Assembly: GCA_030698575.1 (NCBI GenBank)
Contig: JAUYMQ010000240.1
Span: 1-6,948, forward strand
Source: Deltaproteobacteria bacterium
GTDB lineage: Bacteria; JAUYMQ01
DNA: 6,948 nt
Direction of reading: 5' to 3'
Each line of letters opens with the position of its first letter. Within the stretch, counting starts at the first letter, position 1. The notes under the pieces are model-generated. The model saw only the letters and a list, made by a program, of their open reading frames with translations, had not been told where the DNA came from and did not search any database. The translations under genes and the position numbers were made by a program. Shown here in pieces: positions 361-6,502 of this stretch.

Positions 361-1401
361 GTGCTGCTCGAGTGCCGGCTCGAGCAGCTGCGCGGCGCGC
401 TCGACGAGGCGCGCGCCGAAGCCGATCAGGCCCGCATCCGCCTCGCCGAGGCTCTTGCCCGTGAGGCCGGTGAAACCCAGCGTCTGAGCGTGCTCCAGGA
501 CGAGGTCGCCCGCGCCCGTGCGGAAGTCGCCGCGCTGCACCGGCGACTGGAACACTCCGAGGCGCTGCGCGCCAAGCTCCAGGGACATCTCTTCGAGTCG
601 GACGGTAAGGGCGACGCGCAGGAGCTGGTGCGCCTGCGGCGGGAAGTGGCTGCGGATCGGGAGCGCATCGCCGCCAGCGAACAGACAGCCTCGCAGCTGC
701 GGGCTCGCGTGGACGAGCTGGTGGCATCCCGCGAGACGTTGCTCACGCGGGTGGTCGAGTGGCAGCGCGCCGTGCGCGACGGCGACACCGAAGCCGTCGA
801 CCTTGCCGAGTTCATCGCCAGCCTGCGCCGCGCGGTCCTCGACCTCGAACGGGACAACGCACTGGGAGAGCGGCGCGAGGCCGTGCTGCGCGAGCAGCTC
901 GAGCAGGCGACAGCGCCATCGGCGGTGCCCCCTCCCCCGTCCCCCGTCCCCCCTCCCCCTTCTCCTGCGGACGATCTGGTCGCGGCGCTGGCGGCGGCAA
1001 AGCACCCACAGGACCAGGTGGAGCTGCTCCTCCGGCTCGGCCGTCGCGGCGGGGGGGGCGGGGGGGGCGACGACGCGTTTTATGCCGTCCGCCCCTGGGC
1101 CACCGCTGAAGATCCAAACGTTCGCGCCGCGGCCTACCAGTCGCTCGGCCGGCTGCTGGAACGGGACCCGGCGCGGCTCGAGCCTCACATCCGCTGGGGG
1201 ATCGCCGACGCCAACCCGCACGTTCGGCGGCGCGTCGTGCTCGCCGCGGCCGCGGCGCGCGGGCTCGCCCTGCGGCCGCTCCTGGAGCCGCTGAGCGGCG
1301 ATCCCGACCCCCAGGTACGCCGCATCGTGCATCGGATCCTTCGCGCCACCTCCCAGGACCCTCAACGCACGGAAGCCGGAATCGTGCAGCGAGCTTCATA
1401 G
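361..1401 (+). CDS. coiled-coil / proline-rich / HEAT-repeat protein (PomY-like)
   Basis: From a GTG at 361 the protein is 346 residues. Residues 1-182 are a nearly unbroken charged coiled coil rich in Leu, Ala, Arg and Glu, with a break near 80-85 (ESDGKGD). Residues 189-202 are a tandem duplication of VPPPPSP, then a short helix, then a Gly run (230-236). Residues 248-330 hold about three HEAT-type helical repeats, with DPNVRAAAYQSLGRLL and DANPHVRRRVVLAAA as clear repeat units and DPDPQVRRIVHRIL as the third. Coiled coil, Pro-rich segment and HEAT repeats are also what is known of Myxococcus PomY, a larger protein that stimulates the ParA ATPase PomZ. The stop codon overlaps the start of the ATPase gene (TAGTG), so the two are translationally coupled. 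The reading frame extends upstream to 40, but the part before about 283 lies antisense to the dehydrogenase gene. GTG 361 is preferred because GGA precedes it; GTG 283 and TTG 304 remain possible. Pom identity is inferred from architecture and context. Confidence 0.72.
   Translation: MLLECRLEQLRGALDEARAEADQARIRLAEALAREAGETQRLSVLQDEVARARAEVAALHRRLEHSEALRAKLQGHLFESDGKGDAQELVRLRREVAADRERIAASEQTASQLRARVDELVASRETLLTRVVEWQRAVRDGDTEAVDLAEFIASLRRAVLDLERDNALGERREAVLREQLEQATAPSAVPPPPSPVPPPPSPADDLVAALAAAKHPQDQVELLLRLGRRGGGGGGGDDAFYAVRPWATAEDPNVRAAAYQSLGRLLERDPARLEPHIRWGIADANPHVRRRVVLAAAAARGLALRPLLEPLSGDPDPQVRRIVHRILRATSQDPQRTEAGIVQRAS
928..959 (+). repeat. C-rich tract, five runs of five or six C, coding for a duplicated VPPPPSP
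   Basis: Runs of C at 928-932, 934-938, 941-945, 948-953 and 955-959 are separated by only one or two bases (T or GT). The encoded peptide is VPPPPSP twice, so a 21-bp unit has been duplicated in frame. The complementary strand has five G runs with 1-2-nt loops, an almost ideal G-quadruplex motif. Such tracts are prone to slippage. Confidence 0.7.
1051..1067 (+). repeat. two G8 homopolymer runs separated by one C
   Basis: G8 (1051-1058), C1059 and G8 (1060-1067) encode the Gly run of the HEAT-repeat protein, at the join between its linker helix and its HEAT domain. Homopolymers of this length are slippage hot spots and also common places for sequencing errors. The frame downstream is intact, because it reads into good HEAT repeats. 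Confidence 0.7.
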
Positions 1402-2366
1402 TGGAGATCCGTTACAAGCGGAGCCACTTCGCCAAGCTCCTGGGCTTCACGGACCAGCAACTGTCCGCCGCGGACAAACTGCCCGAGCTGAAGGCACTCG
1501 GCGGCGGACCCGCTTCGTACCAGCCGCGACACCTGTCGGCGTACCGCAGGGTGTTGGACCGCCACCCTCGCCGGGAACCGCCGCGCCGCCAGCTCTTCCT
1601 CAACTTCAAGGGTGGCACCGGCAAGACCAGCCTCTCGGTGGCGTACGCCTACCGGCTCGCGGAGCTGGGCCATCGGGTCCTGCTGATCGACCTCGATTCA
1701 CAGGGGCACGCGACCCAGCACCTGGGCCTCGCCGCCGAGAGCCTCGAGCGCACGATCTTCGAGATCCTGGTCAATGGAGTACCGATCGAAGACGTGATCG
1801 TGCCGCACGCGCTCGCCGAGTTCGATGTGCTTCCGGCCAACCTGCGGATGACGACCATCGACATCTCGCTCATGCCGATGGCCGGGCGCGAGTACAAGCT
1901 CCAGCGGGCCCTCGCCGGGGTGTTGGACCGCTACGAGTTCATTGTCATGGACGCCCCGCCCTCCTTTGGGCTGCTGAACCTCAACGCGCTGATGGCGTCC
2001 GACGACCTGCTCGTGCCGGTGCTTCCGGATTTCCTGTCGTTTCACGGTCTCAAACTGCTGTTCGAGACGCTGGGCCAGCTCGAGGACGACCTGAACCACC
2101 GGCTGCAGCGGATCCGGATCGTCATCAATCAGTACAACCCCACGACCCGGATCGCACGCGAGGCCAAAGGGGCGCTGGAGTCGCACTACCCTGAGTTTCT
2201 GTCGGAGACGATCGTGAGGCAGTGCACGCAGTTCGCACGGGCCTCGAGCGACGGCCTGCCCATCAATGCCTACGCTCCGTCGTCCAAGGGAGCCAGGGAC
2301 ATCGACGCCCTTATCACCGAGATGATCAGCGCGCGCTTCGAGCGCGCGATGGAGAGGAGCGCGTGA
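1401..2366 (+). CDS. ParA/MinD-family ATPase with N-terminal extension (PomZ-like)
   Basis: This is a 321-residue protein starting with GTG at 1401, overlapping the upstream stop by one base. Residues 1-60 are a basic helical extension (YKRSHFAKLLGF...RHLSAYRRVLDRH) resembling a MerR-type helix-turn-helix. The deviant Walker A is K70-G-G-T-G-K75-T, with signature Lys70 and Thr73 in place of the usual Val. Walker A' is IDLDSQGHAT with D97 and D99, and Walker B is FIVMDAPPS (D184). The tail has basic residues (R273, R280, K296) where ParA proteins contact DNA. The spacing G71-K75-D99 equals that of PomZ G62-K66-D90 as I recall it, so the extension length is also similar. ParA ATPases dimerise with ATP, bind nucleoid DNA non-specifically and are released by a partner that stimulates hydrolysis. 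No ParB or parS is adjacent; both neighbours are coiled-coil proteins, which favours intracellular positioning over plasmid partition. The ParA assignment is secure; PomZ-like is inferred. Confidence 0.93.
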   Translation: MEIRYKRSHFAKLLGFTDQQLSAADKLPELKALGGGPASYQPRHLSAYRRVLDRHPRREPPRRQLFLNFKGGTGKTSLSVAYAYRLAELGHRVLLIDLDSQGHATQHLGLAAESLERTIFEILVNGVPIEDVIVPHALAEFDVLPANLRMTTIDISLMPMAGREYKLQRALAGVLDRYEFIVMDAPPSFGLLNLNALMASDDLLVPVLPDFLSFHGLKLLFETLGQLEDDLNHRLQRIRIVINQYNPTTRIAREAKGALESHYPEFLSETIVRQCTQFARASSDGLPINAYAPSSKGARDIDALITEMISARFERAMERSA

Positions 2367-3118
2367 CCACCGGTTTCGATGCCAACGTTCCAGCCCGCAA
2401 GCCGCGGACGATCTCCCGGGTGCTCTCCGAGCTCACGGCCGTTCCCGGGTCCTCACCCCCTGACCCCCTCTCCCTTCGGGAGAGGGGGGACGAGCCGCCA
2501 GCGACCATCGAGCTGGCGGCCGAGCCTCCGCCTCCGCCTCCGAAAGCGGGCCCGCGCGTGGCGCGCGCGAAGAACGGTAAGGAGCGGACCGCGTCGCTGC
2601 GGGAGCGTCTGGCGATGACCGCTCACGCCGGTGGTGCCGAGCCGCAGCAGACCGCTGCCCGAGTGCGGGAGTTGATCGAGGCCATGCGCGCCCGGCTCGA
2701 GTCCGCGATCGAGGAACGGACCCGGCTAGCTGGGGAGCTGGAGGAAGCTCGCGCCGCGCTCGGGCGGGGCGAGGCCGAGCTGAAGAAGGAGCGCCGGGCG
2801 CGGGCCGCGCTCGAGGCTCAGGCCGAGGAGCGGCGGCGGATCGCCGAGGAAGCGGTGGCCGAGGCGGAAGCGCTCGCCGCCGAGCGCGATCAGGTGCTCG
2901 AGGAGATTGCCGGGCTGCGCGGGCTCGAAGACCAGGCGGGCCTGCTGCAGGAAGCTGAGGCGGAGCTGGCCGACCTGGATGGGCGGCTGCAGGAGGCGCA
3001 GTCCGGTCGCGCGCGCGCCGAGGCACGTTGCCGGGAGCTTACGGCGGAAGTGGAGCGCCTGTCCGCGGCCGGCGAAGCGCTCGAGGCCCTTGAGTCGCTG
3101 GTGAGACGCAGTCCCTAG
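2363..3118 (+). CDS. basic N-terminal peptide / Pro-rich linker / coiled-coil protein (PomX-like)
   Basis: This is a 251-residue protein. The GTG at 2363 overlaps the ATPase stop by four bases (GTGA) and has a strong ribosome binding site (GGAGAGGAG, 2351-2359). Residues 1-27 are a distinct basic peptide including FDANVPARKPRTISRVL; residues 28-65 are Pro-rich and presumably disordered; residues about 95-248 are a long charged coiled coil. K13 and R15 fall at the positions I recall as essential in the N-terminal peptide of Myxococcus PomX, which activates the PomZ ATPase, and the surrounding F-x-x-N-V...K-P-R spacing also agrees with my memory of that peptide. PomX is likewise a short peptide, a Pro/Ala-rich linker and a coiled coil that polymerises as a scaffold for PomY and PomZ. 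This protein is shorter than Myxococcus PomX. A palindromic repeat is embedded in the linker. The reading frame continues upstream to 2222, but only inside the ATPase gene. Without the match this would be a generic coiled-coil ParA partner. Confidence 0.82.
   Translation: MTTGFDANVPARKPRTISRVLSELTAVPGSSPPDPLSLRERGDEPPATIELAAEPPPPPPKAGPRVARAKNGKERTASLRERLAMTAHAGGAEPQQTAARVRELIEAMRARLESAIEERTRLAGELEEARAALGRGEAELKKERRARAALEAQAEERRRIAEEAVAEAEALAAERDQVLEEIAGLRGLEDQAGLLQEAEAELADLDGRLQEAQSGRARAEARCRELTAEVERLSAAGEALEALESLVRRSP
2451..2489 (+). repeat. REP-like palindromic element inserted in frame in the coiled-coil protein gene
   Basis: The segment reads CCTCACCCCCTGA followed by a perfect 11-bp stem, CCCCCTCTCCC (2464-2474), loop TTC, GGGAGAGGGGG (2478-2488). 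It is of the dispersed 'CCCTCACCCC...CTCTCCC-loop-GGGAGAGGG' type that I know from many GC-rich environmental genomes. It supplies residues about 30-43 (SSPPDPLSLRERGDE) of the PomX-like protein, in the linker, without breaking the frame. As RNA it would form a very stable hairpin inside the message. Confidence 0.7.
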
Positions 3119-3610: not shown

Positions 3611-3639
3611 TTGCATGCCGCGAACGCTTGCGTTACACT
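3611..3639 (+). promoter_or_regulatory. candidate sigma-70 promoter of the arsR-SRPBCC operon
   Basis: TTGCAT (3611-3616), 17 bp, then TACACT (3634-3639). The -10 matches the consensus at four of six positions and the -35 at three of six. Transcription would begin around 3646-3650, inside the palindromic operator and at or just before the ATG, implying a leaderless or very short-leader message. No Shine-Dalgarno precedes the gene, which agrees. Confidence 0.45.
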
Positions 3640-3660
3640 ACTGAACCATATGGTTCAGTA
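3639..3660. promoter_or_regulatory. 22-bp perfect palindromic operator for the ArsR-type repressor
   Basis: The half-site TACTGAACCAT is followed directly by its exact reverse complement ATGGTTCAGTA, with no spacer. It abuts the -10 box and covers the expected transcription start and the first start codon (ATG 3650). AACCATATGGTT-type palindromes are typical of ArsR-family regulators paired with SRPBCC genes. Binding here would block the promoter, so autorepression is the simplest reading. Confidence 0.75.
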
Positions 3661-4015
3661 TATGAGGACCCGCCTTGATACTTCGTTCGCCGCGCTCTCG
3701 GACGCCACGCGGCGTGGCGTTCTGGAGCAGCTCGGACGAGCCGACGCTTCGATCACGGACCTTGCCGAGAAGTTCCACATGACGCTCACGGGCATGAAGA
3801 AGCACGTCGGCGTTCTGGAGCAGGCGGGGCTCGTCACCACGAAGAAGATCGGGCGCGTGCGGACGTGCCAGCTGGGCCCGCGCCGATTGGAGGAAGAGAC
3901 GGTGTGGCTCGAGAGGTACCGCCAGCGCTGGGACGAACGCTTCGACGAGTTGGACAAGGTTGTCGAGGAACTGACACGAAAGGAGAAGAGCGATGAACGC
4001 AAGAATCGAAAGTGA
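3650..4015 (+). CDS. ArsR-family winged-helix transcriptional regulator
   Basis: The product is 121 residues from ATG 3650, or 117 from ATG 3662. Residues 9-75 form the winged helix-turn-helix: LDTSFAALSDATRRGVLEQL opens it, ITDLAEKFHMTLTGMKKHVGVLEQAGLV holds the HTH with the recognition helix at about 46-60, and VTTKKIGRVRTCQLG is the wing. The C-terminal helix (about 80-110) would pair in the dimer. The Cys-rich ELCVCDL metal site of arsenic and cadmium sensors is absent, so this is a non-metal member of the type that regulates a neighbouring SRPBCC gene. Its last 23 bases overlap that gene. The perfect palindrome over its own start indicates autorepression of the two-gene operon. The reading frame extends upstream to 3611, but that would place the promoter inside the gene. 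The inducer is unknown. Confidence 0.9.
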   Translation: MVQYMRTRLDTSFAALSDATRRGVLEQLGRADASITDLAEKFHMTLTGMKKHVGVLEQAGLVTTKKIGRVRTCQLGPRRLEEETVWLERYRQRWDERFDELDKVVEELTRKEKSDERKNRK

Positions 4016-4511
4016 GCCCGGCCCCGTGAAGAACCGCACCACGGTGGAACGGAAGTCGGACCGCGAGGTGATTGTCACGCGGACCATCAACGGCCCGGCG
4101 CGCATCGTGTTCGAGGCATTTACCAAGGCCGAGCTGCTCAAGCGTTGGTGGGTGCCCAAGTCGATGGGAATGACCCTGCTGTCCTGCGAGGTGGATGCTC
4201 GTGTCGGAGGCAAGTACCGATTGGTATTCGACCACGGTGGCCCCGAGCCTGCCGCGTTTTTTGGGTCGTATGTCGAAGTGAAGCCGTACTCGCGCCTCGC
4301 GTGGACCAATGAAGAAGGTGGCGAGGGCGGGCCTGTCACCACGGTGACCTTCGAGGAAAAGGGCGGCAAGACGCTGGTGGTCCTGCGCGAGAGCTATCCT
4401 TCGAAGGAAGCGCTCGACGCTGCCGGCACCGGAGCAGCCGATGCAATGGTCGAGACGTTCGATCAGCTGGACGAGCTTCTCGTCGCCCTGGGTGAGAGCT
4501 CGGGACAGTAA
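3993..4511 (+). CDS. SRPBCC / AHSA1-like (START-fold) protein
   Basis: This is a 172-residue protein. ATG 3993 follows a good ribosome binding site (AAGGAGAAG) and overlaps the regulator gene by 23 bases. Family hallmarks are REVIVTRTINGPARIVFEAFT (about 24-43), the conserved KRWWVP (50-55), DARVGGKYRLVF (68-79), a Gly/Tyr strand FFGSYVEVKPYSRLAWT (89-105), a C-terminal strand pair TTVTFEEKGGKTLVVL, and the long helix AMVETFDQLDELLVAL (151-166). The fold makes a hydrophobic cavity binding small hydrophobic ligands. The name comes from a domain related to the Hsp90 activator Aha1, but bacterial members are not known to act on Hsp90. Pairing with an ArsR repressor is very common. Ligand and physiological role are unknown; a cytoplasmic location follows from the lack of a signal peptide or membrane segment. 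Confidence 0.9.
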   Translation: MNARIESEPGPVKNRTTVERKSDREVIVTRTINGPARIVFEAFTKAELLKRWWVPKSMGMTLLSCEVDARVGGKYRLVFDHGGPEPAAFFGSYVEVKPYSRLAWTNEEGGEGGPVTTVTFEEKGGKTLVVLRESYPSKEALDAAGTGAADAMVETFDQLDELLVALGESSGQ

Positions 4512-5083: not shown

Positions 5084-5101
5084 CAGTATGAAGCTGTTGC
5101 T

Positions 5102-5185
5102 ACCTAACGTTCCGAATGAGCCGCGCGCCTCAACGAGGCGATCACACGAGACCGTTGGCGCGCCGGCTCCATTCGGATGTTAGGC
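5102..5185 (-). repeat. integron attC site 1 (84 bp)
   Basis: Outer cores ACCTAAC (5102-5108) and GTTAGGC (5179-5185) fit the RYYYAAC / GTTRRRY pattern. Inside them CCGAATGAGCCG-CGCGCC pairs with GGCGCGCCGGCTCCATTCGG as a long imperfect stem with single unpaired bases on one side, the extrahelical bases that orient an attC. Read on the minus strand it follows the UspB-like gene, whose TAA stop (5180-5182) lies in the core, as usual for cassettes. Confidence 0.88.
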
Positions 5186-5536
5186 GGCAGCCGCGAAACG
5201 AAGCCAAAGGAAGGCAAGACCGAACACAGCGAATCCCGAAAGAAGGAACACCATCTGACGAAACTCAGAAGCGCGAAGCCTTGAGAACTCTTGCGCCAGG
5301 TGTGGATCGGCGATCTCGGCGAACCCGCGCTGCATGACAAAGCGAAAGTAGGCGCCACGTTGGAGAATGTGGAAGTAGTGTGGAAATGGCCTCCCGAGTT
5401 CCGCGTATTGCCCAGGACACCGCTCCGCAAAGCGCCGGCACAGCTGACGCCCGCGACGGGCAGAGGCAAACACCCAAAGCCCGTTGATCGCGAAGAATAC
5501 GGCTCCTGCGAGCCCAATTGCGTGTTCGACCTGCAT
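5180..5536 (-). CDS. small two-helix membrane protein, UspB-like, in an integron cassette
   Basis: The product is 118 residues from ATG 5536. It has a transmembrane helix at about 4-24 (EHAIGLAGAVFFAINGLWVFA), a basic soluble middle (ARRGRQLCRRFAERCPGQYAELGRPFPHYF...FRFVMQRGF), and a second transmembrane helix at about 94-113 (QMVFLLSGFAVFGLAFLWLRF). Length, two-TM layout and the middle motif (C-P...Y..LG....F followed by R...F) resemble universal stress protein B of enterobacteria, but similarity is weak and function should not be transferred. The start lies only four bases beyond the core of attC 2 and the stop is in the core of attC 1, so gene and attC 1 make one mobile cassette. No ribosome binding site of its own is visible, since the attC occupies that space. 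Expression would depend on an upstream promoter. Confidence 0.8.
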   Translation of the reverse strand: MQVEHAIGLAGAVFFAINGLWVFASARRGRQLCRRFAERCPGQYAELGRPFPHYFHILQRGAYFRFVMQRGFAEIADPHLAQEFSRLRASEFRQMVFLLSGFAVFGLAFLWLRFAAAA

Positions 5537-5540
5537 GTCC

Positions 5541-5630
5541 GTCTAACGGATCGCGCTTAAGCTGCGGCGCGCGGATGAAAGATGCATTCCCTAATCTACG
5601 CGCGCCGCCAGCTTCAAGCGCTGGTTAGGC
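5541..5630 (-). repeat. integron attC site 2 (90 bp)
   Basis: Cores GTCTAAC (5541-5547) and GTTAGGC (5624-5630) flank an imperfect stem: CGCTTAAGCTGCGGCGCGCG pairs with the reverse complement of CGCGCCGCCAGCTTCAAGCG. Two extra bases on one arm are the extrahelical bases, placed as in attC 1, so both sites have the same orientation. On the minus strand it closes the HEPN-pair cassette; the TAA stop of the second gene (5625-5627) lies within the core. Confidence 0.9.
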
Positions 5631-6056
5631 GGCTTGCCCTCCGGGGGCACGATCCGACACACGATAGATGTAGGCATCGTGTATCAAATGACCATTGATC
5701 ACGTTTCGTGTAAACCTGATCCCGTTGACCGTAGGGCCAGTGCTAACGGCGGTGCGAAGGAGAGAAACGAGATAATGCCGAGGATCAACGACCTCGATGT
5801 CACTGAGCGCCAGCTGGCTGCGGGCGTCCGGGAGTGTGGCGAGTGCTGTCTGAATCGACTCGTAGGCCTGTCGAGGTCCGGACAGGGCGACGCGGGGGGA
5901 AGCGAGCACCAGCTTCCAAGTGTTCACCTCCGGCAGATAAAGCCAAAACGCGGCAAAGACCGGCCATTCGACCTCGTCGAGCTTCCGGACGAGATCAGCC
6001 CCGGCTTTCATCATGCCCTCAGTGAGGACGTTTTTTACCAGAGTGTCTTCAGCCAT
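5625..6056 (-). CDS. hypothetical protein, partner of a HEPN-domain protein
   Basis: The product is 143 residues from ATG 6056. No catalytic motif or membrane segment is evident. It opens with a helical part (TLVKNVLTEGMMKAGADLVRKLDEVEWPVFAAFWLYLPEVNTWKLVLASPRV), continues with helix AYESIQTALATLP and strand LALSDIEVVDP, and ends with strands GIRFTRNVINGHLIHDAYIYRV. The segment 'FAAFWLY....W.L.LASP' and 'LSDIEVVDP' match my memory of a small uncharacterised alpha/beta family found on mobile DNA. Its start lies 22 bases inside the end of the HEPN gene, so it is translationally coupled and probably works with that protein, as antitoxin, toxin or complex partner. The stop is within attC 2, so both genes move as one cassette. 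It carries no nucleotidyltransferase (MNT) motif. Confidence 0.8.
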   Translation of the reverse strand: MAEDTLVKNVLTEGMMKAGADLVRKLDEVEWPVFAAFWLYLPEVNTWKLVLASPRVALSGPRQAYESIQTALATLPDARSQLALSDIEVVDPRHYLVSLLRTAVSTGPTVNGIRFTRNVINGHLIHDAYIYRVSDRAPGGQAA

Positions 6057-6451
6057 GTAAGCACACCATGTGTATCGTCAGTCACCGCAGCCCATAGGTC
6101 GCGGGCTCCAATATCGTTGATTGTACTGTCATACCGACTGGTTTCGTTCCAGTCCTTTACGGTGCTCCAGTTAACCTCGAACGGCTTGTCTGTCGCGACC
6201 CTCTCATCAAACTGCTTCTTGAGCCCCGAGATTGCCAGCAATTGCCCCAGGTCGTGAGTGTAGCTCTCGAGGATGAGCTTGCGGTCAGGGAAATCATGCT
6301 CTCGTATCTGCTTGGCGACGCAAGCCTTTAGTGCGCACTCTACAGCGTACCCGATCAGGTAGTAGGCGCCATGGTAATGGCCGGCCTCGAGCAGCACCTT
6401 CGCTTCGGCAACCCGAATGCCAGCGAGGGCCTGAAGCTCAGCTCGGTTCAC
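6035..6451 (-). CDS. HEPN-domain protein in an integron cassette
   Basis: The product is 138 residues from GTG 6451. Helical HEPN features are visible: an N-terminal helix (ELQALAGIRVAEAKVLLEAG), the signature YHGAYYLIGYAVECALKACVAKQI (26-49), YTHDLGQLLAISGL (64-77), and a C-terminal W..TSRYD (101-108). HEPN proteins often act as RNases in toxin-antitoxin or defence systems through an R-x4-6-H motif. I see no such motif, so this may be a non-catalytic member or the binding half of a pair. The weak upstream GAG and GTG start lie about 33 bases from the core of the interrupted attC, making it the first gene of a two-gene cassette with the coupled partner. A toxin-antitoxin or defence function is plausible but not shown. 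Confidence 0.82.
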   Translation of the reverse strand: MNRAELQALAGIRVAEAKVLLEAGHYHGAYYLIGYAVECALKACVAKQIREHDFPDRKLILESYTHDLGQLLAISGLKKQFDERVATDKPFEVNWSTVKDWNETSRYDSTINDIGARDLWAAVTDDTHGVLTWLKTLW

Positions 6452-6483
6452 GATAACTCAAGCAATTGGAGAGTACGCAAGCC

Positions 6484-6502
6484 GCCTAACGGATCGCGCT
6501 TA
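6484..6502 (-). repeat. half of a third attC site, interrupted by an IS110-family element
   Basis: The core GCCTAAC (6484-6490) is followed by GGATCGCGCTTA, and 17 consecutive bases (6486-6502) are identical to attC 2 (5543-5559). After 6502 identity stops abruptly and no matching GTTRRRY arm follows. The other half should lie beyond the right end of the element. The core marks the upstream boundary of the HEPN-pair cassette. Confidence 0.8.

Follow-up and report, generated by a model that had tools for sequence, protein, structure and literature searches.

The window analysed here, a metagenomic contig of 6,948 bases (JAUYMQ010000240.1, our contig C308) from a 4.13 Mb bin, carries in its first half three genes related to pomY, pomZ and pomX of Myxococcus xanthus. 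We consider it quite likely that this cluster and the PomX/Y/Z system for division-site positioning in M. xanthus are homologous, the form seen here being reduced and probably reliant on a single activator. The three proteins are homologous to their M. xanthus counterparts, the gene order is the same, the catalytic and PomX-contact residues are conserved, the genes are under purifying selection, and the C-terminal region of PomY is missing. What is new is the occurrence of PomYZX relatives in a lineage of Gemmatimonadota, where no such machine was known before, with one of the two ATPase-activating parts missing.

The three genes are co-directional and lie on the forward strand, as do all features below unless stated otherwise. 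The pomY-like gene (283–1401) ends with a TAG codon (1399–1401) that shares one base with the GTG start of the pomZ-like gene (1401–2366), which encodes a ParA/MinD-type ATPase of 321 residues, and the first 4 nt of the pomX-like gene (2363–3118; 251 residues) overlap the end of pomZ. The initial annotation, made by a model from the sequence alone, had described three overlapping genes with these domain types, in the M. xanthus order and without ParB or parS. All three open reading frames (ORFs) and their domain calls were borne out; in the M. xanthus match (AM003) PomY likewise lies upstream and PomX downstream of PomZ, an order kept in nearly all loci retrieved, and neither a ParB among the ORFs of the window nor a parS site within three mismatches was found. 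The annotated length of PomY, 346 residues from GTG 361, is probably too short. Its start is uncertain, but GTG 283 (372 residues) or TTG 304 (365 residues) is likelier, because locus L010, of the full-length relatives the closest, has CTG at codon 361 and conservation of the frame extends upstream as far as 283. Additional residues ahead of the conserved LLECR block are also present in other Gemmatimonadota PomY homologues. Measured against L010, the ratios of nonsynonymous to synonymous substitution rates are 0.16 for pomY, 0.17 for pomZ and 0.34 for pomX, indicating purifying selection on all three. Promoter, terminator and Rfam scans found nothing.

On sequence comparison, the ATPase is PomZ-type. 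It consists of a ParA (AAA_31) domain preceded by about 60 additional N-terminal residues, and is 54–55% identical to M. xanthus PomZ, as compared to 32–34% to Soj. Searched against GTDB genomes, it hit mostly Gemmatimonadota contigs at 67–98% identity, followed by mostly myxobacteria at 50–61%. We placed it in a tree together with other PomZ types, the ParAs of the window's own genome, Gemmatimonadota Soj, M. xanthus ParA and further ParA-like proteins of M. xanthus. All of the PomZ-type rows formed one clade (Shimodaira–Hasegawa-like approximate likelihood ratio test, SH-aLRT, 99) with the window ATPase inside it, apart from Soj and ParA, so the grouping with PomZ proposed in the annotation held. 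Within this clade, eight Gemmatimonadota-type rows formed a clade of their own (SH-aLRT 99), beside a Myxococcota row (86). The tree was built by a quick method, some of its outgroup rows are long, it has no MipZ row and its base is unresolved; the grouping is plain from identity as well (54–69% versus 32–34%).

The AlphaFold model of the window PomZ has a ParA fold (predicted local distance difference test, pLDDT, 86.6), with Soj and ParA as the best PDB matches; in Foldseek, the type-Ia ParA2 of Vibrio (7npd) covers more of the model than Soj does (TMq 0.80 versus 0.72). The N-terminal extension (1401–1571) is helix-turn-helix-like, with predicted helices at residues 7–14, 18–25 and 42–52, and myxobacterial PomZs align over it from query residues 3–5 onwards. 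In the alignment, the catalytic Gly62, Lys66 and Asp90 of M. xanthus PomZ are all kept, the first two within the deviant Walker A motif KGGTGKTS (1608–1631). At the positions where an mBio 2026 model has PomZ touching the PomX peptide, the window reads FFEIIGAYEFRSD and M. xanthus FFEVLEAYEFQSE; eight of the 13 residues are identical and most of the others are conservative replacements. The corresponding residues of Soj are quite different.

The proteins on either side of the ATPase are PomX and PomY relatives by profile, as the initial annotation had supposed. In profile–profile comparisons, Gemmatimonadota PomX matched myxobacterial PomX at E 2.2e-18, and Gemmatimonadota PomY matched myxobacterial PomY at E 5e-19. 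Crossed comparisons, serving as controls for coiled-coil artefacts, gave 2e-3 for PomX against PomY and 4e-4 for PomY against PomX. The 251-residue PomX is shorter than that of M. xanthus (404 residues) and has the annotated architecture of N-terminal peptide, proline-rich linker and coiled coil. The N-terminal activating peptide (NPEP), MTTGFDANVPARKPRTISRVLS (2363–2428), identified by pattern search and alignment, retains Lys13 and Arg15, which are essential in M. xanthus (PMC7993993). This peptide has been proposed to bind PomZ at the site equivalent to that of MinE on MinD (PMC13170346). Of 44,192 candidate starts across the 81 loci, 80 matched an NPEP pattern, and all but one of these (79) lay directly after pomZ, one per locus; the pattern was composed after inspecting these sequences and many of the loci are closely related. 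The rarity of the pattern away from pomZ is nevertheless an independent fact. The following Pro/Ala-rich linker (2429–2584) contains a hairpin repeat at 2464–2488 (CCCCCTCTCCC-TTCG-GGGAGAGGGGG) that is translated within PomX and is missing from L009, where blastn leaves a gap; judged from this, the linker seems to grow by insertion of repeats. The C-terminal coiled coil (2585–3115), placed by the profile alignment, corresponds to the scaffold domain of M. xanthus PomX.

The AlphaFold model of PomY (pLDDT 84.6) is composed of three long helices, a short disordered proline stretch and four HEAT helix pairs, and then ends. The helices, at residues 2–82, 88–142 and 146–187, make up the coiled-coil region (352–912). 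This region carries motifs common to myxobacterial PomY, including that of M. xanthus: (E/D)R-LLECR-EQL at its start and DLAEFI-SLR near its end, corresponding to EKIVYFEAR--QL and DLASFISQLR in the myxobacterial proteins. The proline-rich linker PPPPSPVPPPPSP (913–963) has pLDDT <50 at residues 193–201. The HEAT block (964–1353) is modelled with pLDDT mostly >90 and is supported by HEAT/alphaRep matches in Foldseek and by Pfam HEAT_2 (3.4e-7); it has four helix pairs as compared to seven in M. xanthus, and PomY ends soon after it. Thus the window PomY has neither the disordered alpha5 region nor the gD domain that follow in M. xanthus. A hidden Markov model (HMM) of gD matched nearly all of the myxobacterial loci and none of the Gemmatimonadota loci, and all seven PomYs of the Gemmatimonadota clade stop shortly after the HEAT block. 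Given this shared ending, and the one-base overlap of pomY and pomZ in both the window and L010, the short PomY is not the product of a truncated assembly. An alpha5-like stretch noticed by eye at about residue 204, DDLVAALAAA, is modelled as the first HEAT helix and is not claimed as alpha5. The gD HMM also found no match in L018, L020, L029 and a few soil Deltaproteobacteria; L018, L020 and L029 form a second PomZ branch, in which PomX is very long (517–835 residues).

The part of M. xanthus PomY that stimulates PomZ is residues 496–682; it comprises the short helix alpha5 and the winged-helix domain gD, both of which are needed (PMC13170346). M. xanthus PomY cut down to the coiled coil and HEAT repeats still condenses, forms clusters and colocalizes with constrictions (PMC10307791), and PomY lacking 496–682 works partly: cells are 9.0 rather than 7.7 micrometres long, and 68% of constrictions are at midcell (PMC13170346). 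The window PomY is close to a natural counterpart of such a shortened protein. Since the region carrying the activity is missing, it should add no ATPase stimulation, unlike the M. xanthus protein. As this activating region is among the features tested for the M. xanthus type, we class the cluster as a Pom variant and not as a standard member. The sequence reveals a reduced version without the PomY activating region, and the term minimal system, used in the initial annotation, would suit it if the remaining parts suffice.

These features fit a mechanism in which PomX would self-assemble through its coiled coil into a single scaffold, on which PomY, with its coiled coil and HEAT repeats, would condense and recruit FtsZ. 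ATP-bound PomZ dimers would tether this cluster to the nucleoid, and the PomX N-terminal peptide would stimulate ATP hydrolysis by PomZ, so that biased diffusion would bring the cluster to mid-nucleoid, where it would promote formation of the FtsZ ring. We infer division-site placement by this Pom variant as the best-supported function. To the fuller proposal, that a Gemmatimonadota lineage acquired Pom in a single crossing and that the division site is now placed there by a Pom system with the PomX peptide as its only activator and with PomY reduced to a scaffold reader, condensate and FtsZ recruiter, we give about even chances.

The initial annotation had suggested a distribution outside the classical myxobacteria, and the cluster does sit in a Gemmatimonadota clade. 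At a threshold of E <1e-60, PomZ was counted in 132 of 195 Myxococcota versus eight of 395 Gemmatimonadota, one per genome, the latter sample having been drawn around a Gemmatimonadota relative. One carrier contig of 66 kb is chromosomal, with pomYZX beside genes for a rhomboid protease, Pcm, RluB, ScpB and ScpA, as judged from their translations. Its scpB is 66–77% identical to those of five other Gemmatimonadota genomes, four of them without a pomZ match, and the carriage is therefore real but patchy. Because occupancy is so unequal and myxobacterial branches surround the Gemmatimonadota clade, the simplest account would be that Gemmatimonadota received Pom in a single transfer, in a tree whose base is unresolved. 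The flanks of the cluster differ between distant carriers, which fits movement of the cluster. Separately, the PomYZX set of L078, a record labelled Chitinispirillaceae (Fibrobacterota), includes gD and falls with Anaeromyxobacter; it reflects either a further transfer or a wrongly labelled bin.

The assignment of the window itself is less clear. A search of the phylum around its genome found no further member. RecA of the bin is only 63–70% identical to that of Gemmatimonadota, and its Soj does not join the Gemmatimonadota Soj in the tree, so the bin probably belongs to another phylum. The contigs near-identical to the window are all short and bear conflicting labels (three Gemmatimonadetes, one Gamma- and one Betaproteobacteria). 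In 4-mer composition, the flanks of the pom genes score 0.82 against a Gemmatimonadetes AG16 bin versus 0.76 against the window's bin, and the pom genes themselves 0.68 versus 0.72. We think that the window contig may be a misbinned Gemmatimonadota contig, for which 4-mer composition is weak support.

Several observations weigh against reading the cluster as a reduced Pom system for division-site positioning. The organism from which the contig derives is uncertain, and with 2% carriage in the sampled Gemmatimonadota, Pom is not the general solution of that phylum. Lys268 in the DNA-binding patch of PomZ, important for DNA binding in M. xanthus, is Gln in the window, with Q271R nearby; Lys268 is also lost in L009–L012 and L016, but L013 and L014, in this clade too, retain it. 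The arginine at 271 may offset this loss, to judge from the alignment, and Lys268, a single residue, is no family criterion by itself. In addition, the alpha5 pocket of the window PomZ is nearly intact in the alignment though PomY has no recognizable alpha5 or gD, which hints at an unrecognized ligand.

A different cargo is the alternative that deserves most thought, although we regard it as unlikely: PomX/Y/Z chemistry would carry some other large complex across the nucleoid, with division placed by other means. FtsZ recruitment cannot be read from sequence, the sporadic carriage implies that most relatives divide without Pom, and the lost C-terminal region of PomY matters for division in M. 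xanthus (PMC13170346). However, the coiled coil and HEAT repeats, which M. xanthus needs for condensation and colocalization with constrictions, are exactly the parts that are kept, and no cargo gene common to the distant carriers adjoins the cluster. Contamination, whereby the clusters would be misassigned myxobacterial contigs and nothing would exist outside Myxococcota, is highly improbable. The distance of the window's bin from Gemmatimonadota and the short contigs with conflicting labels would agree with it, but the eight Gemmatimonadota-type PomZs form a single well-supported clade separate from all myxobacterial ones, and the scpB of the 66 kb contig ties that carrier to Gemmatimonadota genomes, most of them without a pomZ match.

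Least probable of all is a chromosome or plasmid partition ParA of the ParABS or RepABC kind with unusual partners. The protein shares with Soj/Spo0J systems the ParA fold and a DNA-relay type of mechanism, NCBIfam partition_RepA matches weakly over residues 8–263, including the N-terminal extension, and plasmid RepA proteins are 28–30% identical over the full length. Yet the NCBIfam scores are far below the cut-offs, no ParB gene or parS adjoins, the genome has its own Soj, the ATPase falls outside all Soj/ParA rows, and a PomX peptide is present. Membership in the PomZ clade, together with the matches to PomX and PomY, largely refutes the partition reading, and we rejected both its forms. 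MipZ of Caulobacter, an inhibitor of FtsZ organized by ParB, is likewise a ParA/MinD-type ATPase for division-site placement, and Pfam MipZ matches the window ATPase weakly (2e-7; 31 bits, versus 159 bits for AAA_31). The presence of PomX and PomY homologues as partners and the lack of a ParB partner speak against this assignment, the tree having included no MipZ row. With MinCDE, the likeness lies in the proposed binding of the PomX peptide where MinE binds MinD (PMC13170346). No MinC was found in the window's genome, and none scored over the cut-off in 121 Gemmatimonadota, in which the controls were detected.

The Pom system has been described as conserved in myxobacteria (PMC13170346, PMC7993993). 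A 2024 study of division in Gemmatimonadota reported that Min, MipZ, PomZ, MapZ and SsgAB all seem to be missing from their genomes, and proposed as division-site candidates the ParA-like proteins encoded away from the parAB operon (PMC11271474); beyond this study we found nothing on PomZ with Gemmatimonadota in the literature outside subscription sources. For one lineage at least, the window cluster represents such a ParA-like candidate, and it comes with partner proteins and a mechanism that can be tested. The loss of the activating region from PomY provides a natural experiment on a question raised by M. xanthus, namely why one ATPase has two activators and whether one suffices. If Pom did cross once and run on a single activator, the two functions of PomY would have been separated naturally, and this would be the first division-site system identified in a phylum reported to have none.

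Downstream of the cluster, an ArsR-type regulator is followed by an AHSA1/SRPBCC protein (3611–4511), and L009, L015 and L032 likewise have both close to their pom genes. Further on, attC-like sites (TTAGGC...GCCTAAC) at 5101–5190, 5539–5637 and 6477–6502, corresponding to repeats D1, D2 and I2, bound two or three gene cassettes with ORFs on the minus strand (5180–5536, 5625–6056 and 6035–6451). The region 5101–6502 is thus probably an integron cassette array, with no integrase in the window. In one cassette, formed by the minus-strand ORFs 6035–6451 and 5625–6056, a HEPN-domain protein (Pfam 2e-6) overlaps a small protein without a known family, possibly a toxin–antitoxin-like pair. An IS110-family transposase begins at the contig end (6620–6948).

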